From: an uncultured Bacilli bacterium
GTDB lineage: Bacteria > Bacillota_I > Bacilli_A > RF39 > UBA660
Reading direction: 5' to 3'
Length of the DNA stretch: 64,000 nt
NCBI GenBank assembly: GCA_944358305.1
Contig: CALVQK010000006.1
Span: 1 to 64,000, forward strand
The translations under genes and the position numbers were made by a program. Every line of letters starts with the position of its first letter. Position 1 is the stretch's first letter. Below are positions 21,271 to 49,401 of the stretch, piece by piece. Under the pieces are notes generated by a model. It made no database searches and had not been told where the DNA came from. It worked only from the letters and a program-made list of their open reading frames with translations.

Positions 21271-23106
21271 TTAGTCTGATAATTCTATGGTAAATGGGTT
21301 ATTTTTTGTACCATCTCCACCAGTAATGATGACATTGGATTTTAGATTTATGGATGGCCGAACCCCGTACGAAATACTCGAAGGCGAACCGTAGGTCGCA
21401 TAACCACCGCTGTAGACATACCGAACGCGTGACGAACTATATGGTGTTAAAGTCCAATAAGATGTATTGTTACCATATCTATCAAATTGCCCTGCCATTA
21501 ATTCTCCTAACCTTAGTAAGCCTACTTTTGCTGTAGTCGTACTTGCTGTTAAGATGTTATCTGTTGTATTAGTATACTTTGCTAATTTATATGAAGTACC
21601 ACCCTCTACTGTTCCCAAATACCAAGTTGTACTATCTTCTATCATATTACTATATGTACTATTCACATAACTTGTTAAATATTCACCGTTTAAGAAAGTA
21701 CCAATTACACTATTAGTTGAATAATTAACTTCACTATTTGAACTTCCAAATGCACTAGTTATAAACGTTCCAGAACTCTTTAATGGTTCGGCACTAGTTA
21801 TTTTTGTTCCTGTTCCATTTTCGTGACTTACTATTCTGTATAGATTATTCTCAATGCTTCCAAATCTTATGTATTCTCCACTATATCTACTTGAAAGTAA
21901 TGTTCCTGAAAGATCTGTATCATTATCTCCTTCTAAACGATATGGATTATCTACTGTACCATCACCATCTACAATTTTAACGCTAGATTTTAGATTTATT
22001 GATGGCCGAGCCCCACTCGCACCAGAAAGGCTATAGTAAACCGCGTTGCCGTTGAAACCCACGTTCCGAACGTCTGACGAACTATATGGTGTTAGAGTCC
22101 ACCAATAAAGTCCATTATTTAAATAACCATTACTATAGGTTGTTCCATGATAACTTGTTACATACTCATAATAATTTAGTAAACCAACTGCATCAGTTAC
22201 CATCGTTGTTTCTGCAGGTTTACTTGATGATTCAGTTAAAGTAGCATTCCACTTAGCATCTGTTACTATAAAGTTCTCATAATCTCTTAAATTACCTAAG
22301 AAGCCATCTACTGTGGTATCATTTAACCAATCTTCCATATAACTTCCTGCAAAAGCTGCATTGCCACTTGCATTATAAGGTATTGCACTTATATTCCATT
22401 GTGTTACTAATTTAACCGTCTTTGCTTCATTATTTACAGACACTGCCCTCCATAATTTACCACTATACCATATATAATTATTGGGGTCAGTTCCTGTTAT
22501 AAATGTATCTGTTCCATCATCATATGTATCTCCATCTGGGCCTGGATTTTCCAATACTATATCTGATACTGGTCCTTCTAGTTTAGCTTCTTCAAATAAA
22601 TGCCCATTACTTGGTAATTCTAAATCATTATAATCTAGTCCTACCTCTACTCCTAAAGTAATTGTTACATTACTACTAGAGTCATTCTTTACTCTTATCT
22701 TATAAATATTACTAGAACCTGCTGTTCCACTTGCTTCCAGATTAGTTCCTATTTCATTAGGTGGTGTATTTAACCCTTCTCCTGTTATATATCCAGCAGT
22801 TACTCCATCTGGCAAGCTTCCTTCATAATAAAAGTTAAACCTTGCTATTCTATTATTAGGATTAGATAGTGTTACCGTAAACTCTTTAGTTTCTCCCGCT
22901 CCTACTGTTAAATTATTACCTTCACTTCCATCTACCTCTAAATCATATACTAAGTTGCCTGTTATAATACTTATTGCATTTCCTTGTTCTTTACTTACTG
23001 TAAACATTGCATAGGAAAAATATCCCCCTACTATTAGTAACGTTATTATAACCATCACTATCATATAAATCTTACTAAAGCTTGTTTCTAATAACAATTT
23101 CTTCAT
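21271..23106 (-). CDS. Exported repeat protein with two variable lectin-like domains (candidate diversified surface protein)
   Basis: 611 aa. Residues 1-36 form a signal/anchor segment of the camelysin/TasA kind (short basic N-terminus, long hydrophobic core, then an Ala-Met-Phe region and the GNLVYDLEVDG strand). An Ig-like sandwich follows (about 45-170), then two copies of a larger domain (about 185-390 and 400-611). Each copy contains WTLTPYSSS and ends in RPSINLKS, then a GDGT motif and N-P. The segment between (344-369 and 559-585) is nearly unconserved between copies, GC-rich and codon-atypical, whereas its flanks are almost identical in DNA. The architecture matches DUF6273-like domains and the C-type-lectin style targets of diversity-generating retroelements. 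The gene has an AGGAG site and a complex leader. No SipW or reverse transcriptase is present. Confidence 0.8.
   Translation of the reverse strand: MKKLLLETSFSKIYMIVMVIITLLIVGGYFSYAMFTVSKEQGNAISIITGNLVYDLEVDGSEGNNLTVGAGETKEFTVTLSNPNNRIARFNFYYEGSLPDGVTAGYITGEGLNTPPNEIGTNLEASGTAGSSNIYKIRVKNDSSSNVTITLGVEVGLDYNDLELPSNGHLFEEAKLEGPVSDIVLENPGPDGDTYDDGTDTFITGTDPNNYIWYSGKLWRAVSVNNEAKTVKLVTQWNISAIPYNASGNAAFAGSYMEDWLNDTTVDGFLGNLRDYENFIVTDAKWNATLTESSSKPAETTMVTDAVGLLNYYEYVTSYHGTTYSNGYLNNGLYWWTLTPYSSSDVRNVGFNGNAVYYSLSGASGARPSINLKSSVKIVDGDGTVDNPYRLEGDNDTDLSGTLLSSRYSGEYIRFGSIENNLYRIVSHENGTGTKITSAEPLKSSGTFITSAFGSSNSEVNYSTNSVIGTFLNGEYLTSYVNSTYSNMIEDSTTWYLGTVEGGTSYKLAKYTNTTDNILTASTTTAKVGLLRLGELMAGQFDRYGNNTSYWTLTPYSSSRVRYVYSGGYATYGSPSSISYGVRPSINLKSNVIITGGDGTKNNPFTIELSD
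21353..21432 (-). repeat. Variable patch 2 of the exported protein (DGR-like VR candidate)
   Basis: 80 bases encoding about residues 559-585. My count gives 45 of 80 G or C (56%), far above the surroundings. Its upstream flank shares a 20-base identical run with the other patch, and its downstream flank shares the CGGCCATC segment and AAATCTAAAATC. Codons such as TCG, ACG, CGC, GCG and CGG are rare elsewhere in the window. Confidence 0.6.
22001..22077 (-). repeat. Variable patch 1 of the exported protein (DGR-like VR candidate)
   Basis: 77 bases encoding about residues 344-369, one codon shorter than patch 2. My count gives 44 of 77 G or C (57%). Its sense strand starts TCAGACGTTCGG where patch 2 has TCACGCGTTCGG, a difference two adenines in a template could explain, but many later differences are C/T at third positions. 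The GC-rich 3' border GGGGCTCGGCCATC corresponds to GGGGTTCGGCCATC in patch 2. Confidence 0.6.
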
Positions 23107-23133: not shown

Positions 23134-23165
23134 AAAAAAGAATAGAATTAACCTATTCTATTCTT
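23134..23165 (-). terminator. Terminator in the leader of the variable surface protein gene (possible attenuator)
   Basis: Perfect 11-bp stem (23165-23155 with 23148-23138), 6-base loop, and six T (23139-23134). It lies only 28 bases before the start codon at 23106 and downstream of a leader ORF, so transcripts begun upstream must pass it to reach the gene. It could instead be a distal terminator of the Rpn-like gene that ends at 23340. Confidence 0.85.
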
Positions 23166-23207
23166 CTTGCATTATGAAAGAAAGTAATCTTATTACTTAG
23201 ATACTTA

Positions 23208-23255
23208 CTAAAGCACCCCCCCCCAGGTAACTTTTTGTAAACTAATTCTCTTCAT
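23208..23255 (-). CDS. Candidate 15-codon leader peptide containing a G9 tract
   Basis: Starts ATG at 23255 after an AAGAAGGT site (7 of 8 matches to the ideal) 7-8 bases upstream and encodes MKRISLQKVTWGGVL, stopping at 23208. The Trp-Gly-Gly part is written by the G9 tract. With one G more it ends a few codons later. With one less (or two more) it would run about 20 further codons to a TAG at 23155-23153, the end of the first terminator arm. It could be chance, since it is very short; the ribosome site and position support it. Confidence 0.4.
   Translation of the reverse strand: MKRISLQKVTWGGVL
23216..23224. repeat. Homopolymer C9 (G9 on the minus strand)
   Basis: Nine consecutive C, the only long G/C homopolymer I see in this AT-rich window, 110 bases upstream of the variable protein's start codon. 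Such tracts are classic slippage sites. Its exact length may vary between cells or reads. Confidence 0.9.
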
Positions 23256-23288
23256 ACTTTTTACCTTCTTTCTTACCTTGTTAACTTA

Positions 23289-23318
23289 ATATTAACATAA
23301 ATAAGTTATTAAGAGCAA
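23289..23318 (-). promoter_or_regulatory. Candidate promoter of the leader and variable surface protein gene
   Basis: On the minus strand TTGCTC (23318-23313), an 18-base spacer, and TAATAT (23294-23289); predicted start near 23282, which would place the leader ORF, G9 tract and terminator in the 5' untranslated region. The boxes are imperfect. Confidence 0.4.
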
Positions 23319-23339: not shown

Positions 23340-24179
23340 CTATACTAACTTATTTAGTTCTTCTATACTTAATCCTGTATTCTTAGAGACAATTTCTAAA
23401 GGTATGCCATCTTTAATAAAGTTTTTGGCAATAGATAGTTCTCTTTCTTTGGCTCCTTCTTCTTTTCCTTTGATAACACCGGCATCATAACCATCAAGCC
23501 TTGCTGAATTTACTAGTTTCCTTTGCACTTTCTCAGCATCATAATATGTTCTAAATTCATCATCTTCACTTAATCTTTCTAACTCTTCCACTATTCTTAA
23601 AGCCTCCTTATTCTCTCCTGAGATCTCCTTCATCTCTTCAAAGCTCTGCGCTCTAAATAACGCTAAGTATGTCTCTTTTTCGTTACTTCCATTATAGTGG
23701 ATTTTATCTAAACTTGCAACATATATATCATATATTTTTAGATCATCTATTACATCTTTATACTCTTCATTTATTAAATCATATCCTACTGTTATCGCAT
23801 TCTTATTCTCTTTATAACTAGCATTATTTATATTGATTAAGATTGTATGCATCTTCTTAAAGTCTTCTCCTTTCGCTAAGCCTCCTCCTGCTATACTATA
23901 TAGATACTGCCTATTCTTTAATATGCTTCTTGTATCGACACTACTATTCATCTCGATTATTATAAAGTCTTTATCTTTTTTTAATAGTATATCTAGTCTA
24001 TAATCTCTTCCTTTTGATCCACTATTTATTTCATTATCATATAATTCATATTCTTTTATATCTATATTGGTTGTTAATTTTATTAGTCTTTCAAAAAATG
24101 GTCTATACTCTTCATTCTTAAACATATATTTAAAAGTTGTATCGGAAAGCAGACTAATGAAATTATCTTTTTGTTCCAT
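23340..24179 (-). CDS. Rpn-family PD-(D/E)XK nuclease (putative recombination-promoting nuclease/transposase family)
   Basis: 279 aa. It opens with the family-typical LLSDTTFKYMFKN, then the nuclease core with Asp63 and the E-x-N variant (Glu76, Asn78) after strands DYRLDILLKK and DFIIIEMN, and ends with a helical tail containing KEEGAKERELSIAKNFIKDGIPLE. Members (Rpn/YhgA-like, PDDEXK_2) promote RecA-independent recombination in E. coli. The ATG at 24179 has AAGGAGG 5 bases upstream; the longer ORF starts before that site. A 14-bp palindrome lies upstream. The gene is intact, without terminal inverted repeats, so I do not call it a mobile element. Confidence 0.85.
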   Translation of the reverse strand: MEQKDNFISLLSDTTFKYMFKNEEYRPFFERLIKLTTNIDIKEYELYDNEINSGSKGRDYRLDILLKKDKDFIIIEMNSSVDTRSILKNRQYLYSIAGGGLAKGEDFKKMHTILININNASYKENKNAITVGYDLINEEYKDVIDDLKIYDIYVASLDKIHYNGSNEKETYLALFRAQSFEEMKEISGENKEALRIVEELERLSEDDEFRTYYDAEKVQRKLVNSARLDGYDAGVIKGKEEGAKERELSIAKNFIKDGIPLEIVSKNTGLSIEELNKLV

Positions 24180-24204
24180 ATATTCCTCCTTCATTTTTAG
24201 ATTT

Positions 24205-28723: not shown

Positions 28724-28796
28724 ATAAGAACTCTGTTCTATCCGAAGCATTACGATTAGTTCGTGAAAGGCTTATGTAGGAAGAATGGAGTTTTTA
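28724..28796 (+). ncRNA. Candidate structured small RNA (about 70 nt), unknown family
   Basis: The transcript predicted from the promoter folds into one long hairpin. Helix 1 is 11 bp (28729-28739 with 28782-28792, two G-U pairs), helix 2 is TCC/GGA (41-43 with 79-81), helix 3 is AAGC/GCTT (45-48 with 70-73) and the apical helix is 6 bp (50-55 with 61-66) with loop TTAGT. The asymmetric internal loops are G44 against five bases and A49 against three. T5 follows directly and a second T-rich run soon after, which would terminate transcription. It does not show the SRP, 6S, tmRNA or tRNA hallmarks. The 3' end overlaps the convergent gene's stop codon. Confidence 0.55.
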
Positions 28797-48222: not shown

Positions 48223-49401
48223 TTATTTTAAAATAAACGGATTAGATGCACTTCCACTACCTGATTTTATCATAACATTGTTATTTAACATAATTGTTGG
48301 TCTTATTCTTTTATATCCAGATGTGGTATTTAAATCAATATAGCCATTACCTTTAATTACATAAGCTTCATAGTTATTAAGAGAATTACCAGTTAATAAC
48401 CACCATTCTGTTTCTTTTAGTCTTAAATAATTATAGTTTTGACAACTCTTATCAGTAGTTGCTAAGCAATTGGCATCTAATGAGGCATTCATATAATCAC
48501 TAACAGTTAATAAACCTATCATTTGATTTTCTAAAACGTCAGCACACTCTATTGTATTATCTTTAGCTGTATCAGATGGAGAACGTTTACCTATACATAA
48601 GTTAAAAGTTGTTAATTTTTGTTTATCATTATTACTTAATAATCTATAATCATTACTATTTTTATTATTATAAAGATCATCTAGATACTCATAGACTCTA
48701 CTAACTCTATAATCATTAAAACCACTATTAAATAGTCTATCTGGATTATATCTATCATCATAATAAGATGATAAAGTTGAGATTGGTTCATTTAAAATTA
48801 ATAATAGCTTATTATCAGAAGTTACTTTAACTATTCTAAATATTTGATTATCTAAACTAACATAATTATTGACATCATCACCACGATAAACAGTTTCCCC
48901 ATTCATTTGATATAAACCACTACCAGAAGTTACTATTCCTTGTTCTAAAACAGCTTTGTATAATTCTTTAGTAGTATAATTATCGCCACAATCAAGATAT
49001 GGTGTATAAATTAAATTGTCATTTATCATAGTTACTTCTACTCTACCACTACAACTTTCACCTTCACGAAGTTCACTTAGAGGATCCATATAACCAGCTT
49101 CTGCTAAGGCACTAGCTCTAACAGTCACTGTTTCTCCCTCTTCTTGTGGTAATAGGCCACTTTGAACTTCATAATACTCCATAGCAGAGTTTTTCATTAT
49201 TTCTTCTATTTCTTCATAACTTTTATTTCCACCAGTTACTAAAGATATTATTAATATAATAATTAATATTAATACTAGAACTCCTACTACTATTAACATA
49301 ATTCTCATTAATTTCTTTTTCATAGCACTATTATCTTTAGTAGGTTTTGGAGCTTCAGCTTTAGTATTATTAATTATTTCTTGACCTTTATTATCATTCA
49401 T
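48223..49401 (-). CDS. Membrane-anchored exported protein with a DUF6273-like lectin domain
   Basis: 392 aa. A cytoplasmic basic N-terminus, one membrane segment (about 33-52), a pilin-like region with two Cys (about 60-165), then a domain (about 170-392) that parallels each repeat of the 611-aa protein at 21271-23106: NQIFRIVKVT, a YLDDLYN stretch, MIGLLTVSDYMNA, EWWLLTGNS, IRPTIMLNNNV, then GSGSASNPFIL. Here the segment between WWLL and RPT is ordinary AT-rich sequence. Thus it is a natural non-diversified comparison. The ligand and role are unknown. Confidence 0.75.
   Translation of the reverse strand: MNDNKGQEIINNTKAEAPKPTKDNSAMKKKLMRIMLIVVGVLVLILIIILIISLVTGGNKSYEEIEEIMKNSAMEYYEVQSGLLPQEEGETVTVRASALAEAGYMDPLSELREGESCSGRVEVTMINDNLIYTPYLDCGDNYTTKELYKAVLEQGIVTSGSGLYQMNGETVYRGDDVNNYVSLDNQIFRIVKVTSDNKLLLILNEPISTLSSYYDDRYNPDRLFNSGFNDYRVSRVYEYLDDLYNNKNSNDYRLLSNNDKQKLTTFNLCIGKRSPSDTAKDNTIECADVLENQMIGLLTVSDYMNASLDANCLATTDKSCQNYNYLRLKETEWWLLTGNSLNNYEAYVIKGNGYIDLNTTSGYKRIRPTIMLNNNVMIKSGSGSASNPFILK

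Follow-up and report, generated by a model that had tools for sequence, protein, structure and literature searches.

It appears quite probable, from sequence comparison without RNA, protein, or within-strain data, that the leader preceding a surface protein gene in the window (the whole 64-kb stretch of DNA analyzed here) acts as a phase-variable, translation-coupled transcription attenuator. The comparison supports the frames, their stops, the terminator, and the variable tract, while actual switching, antitermination, the role of the helix termed P1, and the need for leader translation are inferred. The original prediction had placed a promoter-like pair, a ribosome site, an ATG, a tract of nine Gs (G9) inside a 15-codon ORF, and an intrinsic terminator on the minus strand, and each of these elements was recovered at the same coordinates (Table 1). 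The stops that it gave were likewise re-derived exactly: with G9 the leader frame ends at 23208, with G10 it also ends early, at 23199-23197, and with G8 or G11 it remains open for 33 or 34 codons and ends at the TAG at 23155-23153, where the 5' arm of the terminator has its final base pair. The proposal that these parts form a slippage-controlled attenuator is supported, in that all of its sequence-level predictions hold across the leader family, including open and closed frames and tract variation among near-identical copies; switching and antitermination are inferred, with no experiment.

Table 1. Elements of the leader and the predicted gated gene in the window.
Feature	Coordinates	Strand	Remarks
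Weak -35-like TTGCTC	23318-23313	minus	spacer of 18 nt to TAATAT
Extended -10 TGTTAATAT	23297-23289	minus	5' of leader ATG
Predicted promoter (whole)	23289..23318	minus	-35-like element and extended -10
Leader ribosome site in AAGAAGGT	between promoter and ATG	minus	
Putative P1 5' arm GAAAGAAGGTAA	23261..23272	minus	includes leader Shine-Dalgarno; from fold and pairing over 31 copies
Leader ATG	23255-23253	minus	
OFF-frame (G9) leader ORF, MKRISLQKVTWGGVL	23208..23255	minus	15 codons; TAG 23210-23208
ON-frame (G8 or G11) leader, ...FSKYLSNKITFFHNARRIE	23153..23255	minus	TAG 23155-23153
G9 tract, putative variable switch	23216..23224	minus	4-13 G in relatives, mode 9
Putative P1 3' arm TTACTTTCTTTC	23176..23187	minus	complementary to leader Shine-Dalgarno region; T-F-F in ON frame
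Intrinsic terminator, 11-bp stem AAGAATAGAAT/ATTCTATTCTT and T run	23134..23165	minus	
Terminator stem arms	23165-23155/23148-23138	minus	T run 23139-23134
Predicted gated gene, 611-aa protein	21271..23106	minus	N-terminal membrane anchor, two DUF6273 stretches (PF19789)

The G9 tract is the sole run of at least six Gs or Cs in the window (27% GC), and the whole genome holds five runs of at least nine Gs, every one of them inside a leader copy. Simple promoter and terminator scans of the window flagged neither the leader promoter nor the leader terminator, which is explained by a -35 element matching at only 3 of 6 positions and a stem with fewer than three G-C pairs. The leader strand folds 4 SD better than shuffled sequences (z -3.98), and the terminator has a dG of about -11. 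Elsewhere in the window, a second, weaker DUF6273 protein is encoded at 48223-49401 without a poly-G leader, and several other DUF6273 genes of this genome also lack one. The upstream 284-aa ORF (23340-24194) has no Pfam match, and its 3' end is repeated on two other contigs of this genome, C7 and C20; a DUF3800-VIII RNA (Rfam RF03075, 48.8 bits) lies at 28727-28794.

Genomes of 'Candidatus Onthousia' yielded a total of 209 distinct leader copies. This genome carries five full copies (contigs C6, C25, C15, C9, and C4), that on C9 with an interrupted tract, GGGAGGGGG. Homologues were found in 33 of 60 related genomes, with 2-18 matches each and all within one genus, and the core ACAANNNGTTACCTGGGGGG was found in just one of the 117 genera of the family; a looser core pattern gave 31 matches in one genome. 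An Rfam search returned no match at gathering scores, and hence no curated cis-regulatory leader family, the only sub-threshold hit being one copy to L20_leader (21.8 bits vs 58.7). Viral spread of the core was considered and rejected, as the matches in viral contigs have other contexts and short tracts and look like chance. Six leaders (L028, L052, L068, L081, L162, and L179) contain an insert, TTTTTATCCTTAAGCATAAAA, that is also seen as its reverse complement, and in four of them (L052, L068, L081, and L162) a TTTTATGCCCAT inverted-repeat stretch replaces the usual terminator.

In all 186 anchor-bearing copies, the frame in which the anchor CTTTCTTT reads T-F-F stays open from the tract to the anchor and on to a stop. 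The other two frames are both closed in 184 of these 186, and the segment that separates tract from anchor differs greatly among copies in sequence and length. When these segments were reduced to 27 regions of less than 75% identity, the T-F-F frame was open in all 27, where dinucleotide shuffles predict 7.9 (product P about 10^-15.5), and all 27 contained stops in both remaining frames, where codon shuffles predict 17.4-19.4; the regions share some ancestry, so these probabilities are guides and not exact. Two frames held closed while one is open make a switch distinguishable from an ordinary short gene, and it is from this frame evidence that translation of the leader is inferred. Of 177 foldable copies, 172 have the open-frame stop within the terminator's 5' arm and three have it within the loop, and closed-frame stops lie 22-58 nt upstream of the hairpin with a single exception.

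Counting only copies with enough upstream sequence, an extended -10 (TG.TA..AT) precedes the leader ATG in 104/146 copies, compared with 49/560 background windows; it is present in 100 of the 118 copies in which no ORF ends within 40 nt and in only 4 of the 28 directly behind another ORF. L031 and L032 directly follow an upstream ORF, and at L160 a single contig has three leaders spaced about 2-4 kb apart, which indicates that leaders are also used within arrays. An intrinsic terminator (hairpin and T run) separates leader and gene, usually without room for a second promoter: the downstream start codon lies 19-39 nt past the T run in 128/159 copies, too close for the gene to have a promoter of its own, and in the window a simple promoter scan found no promoter-like site in this gap. 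There are 27 exceptions, counted against the attenuator reading, in which the downstream gene starts about 88-118 nt past the terminator and many of which appear to hold their own promoter (TTGATA-N17-TAATAT-like), so gating there may be partial or absent.

Two main parts make up the predicted fold of the window leader, the terminator and the 12-bp helix P1, which pairs the leader Shine-Dalgarno region with UUACUUUCUUUC; no alternative antiterminator helix was seen in this fold. The terminator is A-U rich, a point counted against the attenuator reading, and one pair of its stem shows a C-G to U-A exchange in 10/31 copies. Over the same number of copies, 95.9% of P1 cells pair, compared with 57-71% when the arms are slid, and its covariation score exceeds those of all 500 shuffles. 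The P1 duplex energy is -13.28 with own partners against -12.77 (sd 0.06) with swapped ones. Relatedness of the copies inflates these controls, and P1 is therefore likely but not proved. The mechanism that we propose begins with RNA polymerase starting near 23282 to give a leader RNA that would encode a short peptide. Slippage, in DNA replication and possibly in transcription too, would change the length of the G tract; with two of every three lengths the peptide would end soon after the tract, the ribosome would leave at least about 30 nt before the terminator, and the hairpin would form and stop transcription (OFF). With the third length, the ribosome would read on as far as a stop within the hairpin's 5' arm and so prevent the hairpin from forming, and the surface gene would be transcribed (ON). 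Once the ribosome is gone, the leader Shine-Dalgarno may pair with its P1 partner, and we infer that the role of this helix would be to keep later ribosomes off the leader.

Within the leader ORF, 206 of the 209 copies carry a G tract of 4 to 13, and its length is 9 in 110 of these. Tract length differs in 28 of 50 pairs whose flanks are at least 92% identical. L074 (G9, OFF) and L043 (G11, ON) agree at 135/135 flanking bases, and the pairs L170 (G7, OFF) and L028 (G8, ON), with 98.6% identical flanks, and L084 (G9, ON) and L175 (G11, OFF), with 98.5%, differ in the same way. These pairs are paralogues and copies from different species, not a single population, and they indicate that tract length evolves more quickly than the flanking sequence and in doing so crosses the predicted ON/OFF line. 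By core frame, 20 copies are predicted ON and 146 OFF, while in four others a stop codon precedes or interrupts the tract; after clustering at 85%, about 7/64 (about 11%) are predicted ON, which is under one third, and in this genome every assigned surface-gene copy is predicted OFF. These two observations count against the attenuator reading, in that selection or another default must be assumed. The state counts would fit a population in which most members of the surface family are silent at any time, an inference rivalled chiefly by a default state of G9 with slippage at a low level. Across the copies, G9 is strongly preferred and the ON state under-represented. Besides the four copies with a stop ahead of or within the tract, a few more have an interrupted tract, and both groups are further points against the attenuator reading; in L031, L025, L026, and L010, a TGA or TAG just before or in the tract may lock the leader OFF, and the TGA-before-tract form recurs across several species. 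Recoding of TGA as Trp in such copies was ruled out, as TGA ends 6/51 long ORFs. Loss of mismatch repair was rejected as a source of tract instability, MutS and MutL both being present.

The same core also stands before other kinds of gene. An (L/S)QxVTWG(n) core with G10 precedes a gene for an EssC-like type VII secretion ATPase (L257:3097-3106; G000:C1:40096-40105), where it has its own, different terminator, the loop of which contains the G10-frame stop; another species has a similar EssC-type locus with G9 (L050). With G8, the core precedes an MscS channel gene (L258; G000:C2:49889-49896, minus strand), where there is no terminator but a hairpin, CTTTTCTAT/ATAGGAAAG, over the downstream Shine-Dalgarno, and the G8 frame is the longest of the three. 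In three species (L045, L054, and L058), the core, with G10 or G11, follows phage-type genes and precedes a small protein gene, the upstream gene being clearly phage structural in one of them; a tract of G9 or G12 would let translation enter the next gene by 8 nt, unlike one of G10 or G11. The nucleotides TTTACAANNNGTTACC ahead of the tract are conserved, including in copies before these other kinds of gene. Taken together, the three outputs suggest a portable switch. We therefore put forward, as a tentative idea with somewhat less than an even chance of being right, that LQxVTW-G(n) is a portable frame-switch module, put by a single genus in front of unrelated genes and giving three different read-outs, namely terminator occlusion (surface proteins and EssC), a Shine-Dalgarno hairpin (MscS), and direct translational coupling (the prophage gene), forming one genome-wide phase-variable regulon with flanks perhaps tuned for slippage.

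A rival explanation is programmed slippage, in which a constant share of the ribosomes or RNA polymerases passing over G9 would slip and give the long peptide and readthrough in every cell with the DNA unchanged. It draws some support from G9 in the same offset (+1 needed) being the commonest state (72/170) and from the conservation of TTTACAANNNGTTACC. A fixed programmed shift, however, would keep tract length modulo 3, whereas the copies differ in offset (+1 is needed in 98 and -1 in 48, and 20 are in frame) and near-identical copies have unlike tracts, and we regard this explanation as unlikely.

Considerably less credible is that the leader is a stand-alone phase-variable micropeptide gene, with a terminator of its own overlapping its stop and with the surface gene independent. 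The stop codon does overlap the hairpin, and the 27 long-gap copies offer room for a promoter after the hairpin, which many apparently have; against this stand the short gap in 128/159 copies, the absence of a promoter-like site after the hairpin in the scan of the window, and a peptide whose C-terminal part differs among copies in sequence and length although its frame remains open. We give hardly any credence to classical attenuation sensing amino acids through the Trp and Gly codons UGG GGG GGG: the leader does contain a conserved Trp-Gly-Gly, but tract length and frame vary among copies, the fold offers no alternative antiterminator helix, and the controlled genes are not biosynthetic.

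In the contingency loci of Neisseria, Campylobacter, and Helicobacter, a G/C tract slips in length and switches surface genes, and the tract usually sits in a promoter spacer or the main ORF, whereas the Onthousia tract would act via a leader peptide and terminator. In trp-type attenuation of Escherichia coli, the position of the ribosome on a leader peptide decides whether the terminator forms; there the position is set by amino acid supply, while in the Onthousia leader it would be set by reading frame, with no antiterminator helix seen. The closest precedent is the pair of pilus leaders pil1 and pil3 of Streptococcus gallolyticus, in which GCAGA repeats in the leader peptide decide whether the ribosome reaches the terminator, as shown by experiment for pil1 (Danne 2014, PMC3894217). 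In that organism, a mixed, mostly low state results when the leader stop lies 28 nt or more ahead of the terminator, and a high one when it lies at or in the terminator (PMC3894217). Both systems have a repeat in the leader-peptide ORF and a frame that decides whether the stop falls within a premature terminator or a long way before it, both gate genes for surface structures, and just as most S. gallolyticus cells are OFF, most Onthousia copies are predicted OFF.

The differences are also substantial. The S. gallolyticus repeat is a pentamer at two loci, in contrast to poly-G with up to 31 core matches per genome across a genus; out-of-frame changes of either kind are ON in S. gallolyticus, as opposed to one frame ON and two OFF in Onthousia; and Onthousia leaders, unlike pil1 and pil3, are used in tandem between surface genes, with homology to pil1/pil3 not shown. 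No other phase switch based on a leader peptide and terminator was found in the open literature, most subscription journals lying outside the search. The expectation that such a switch would be unusual stands for the homopolymer version, which is new, but not for the working principle, already known from the S. gallolyticus pentanucleotide repeat, which differs in type and scale (PMC3894217). New, in addition, are the genus-wide multicopy scale, the design of one open and two closed frames, and the reuse before EssC, MscS, and prophage genes.

If the attenuator reading is true, these leaders would join the S. gallolyticus pili, the one example known from the literature searched, as a further and apparently independent instance of phase variation via a leader peptide and terminator, on by far the larger scale. 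The rule of one open and two closed frames offers a simple finder for such switches in other genomes, and with it ON and OFF states could be read straight from metagenome reads. It would also mean that an uncultured gut genus achieves surface variation through a mechanism left uninterpreted by ordinary repeat scans of promoters or coding genes.
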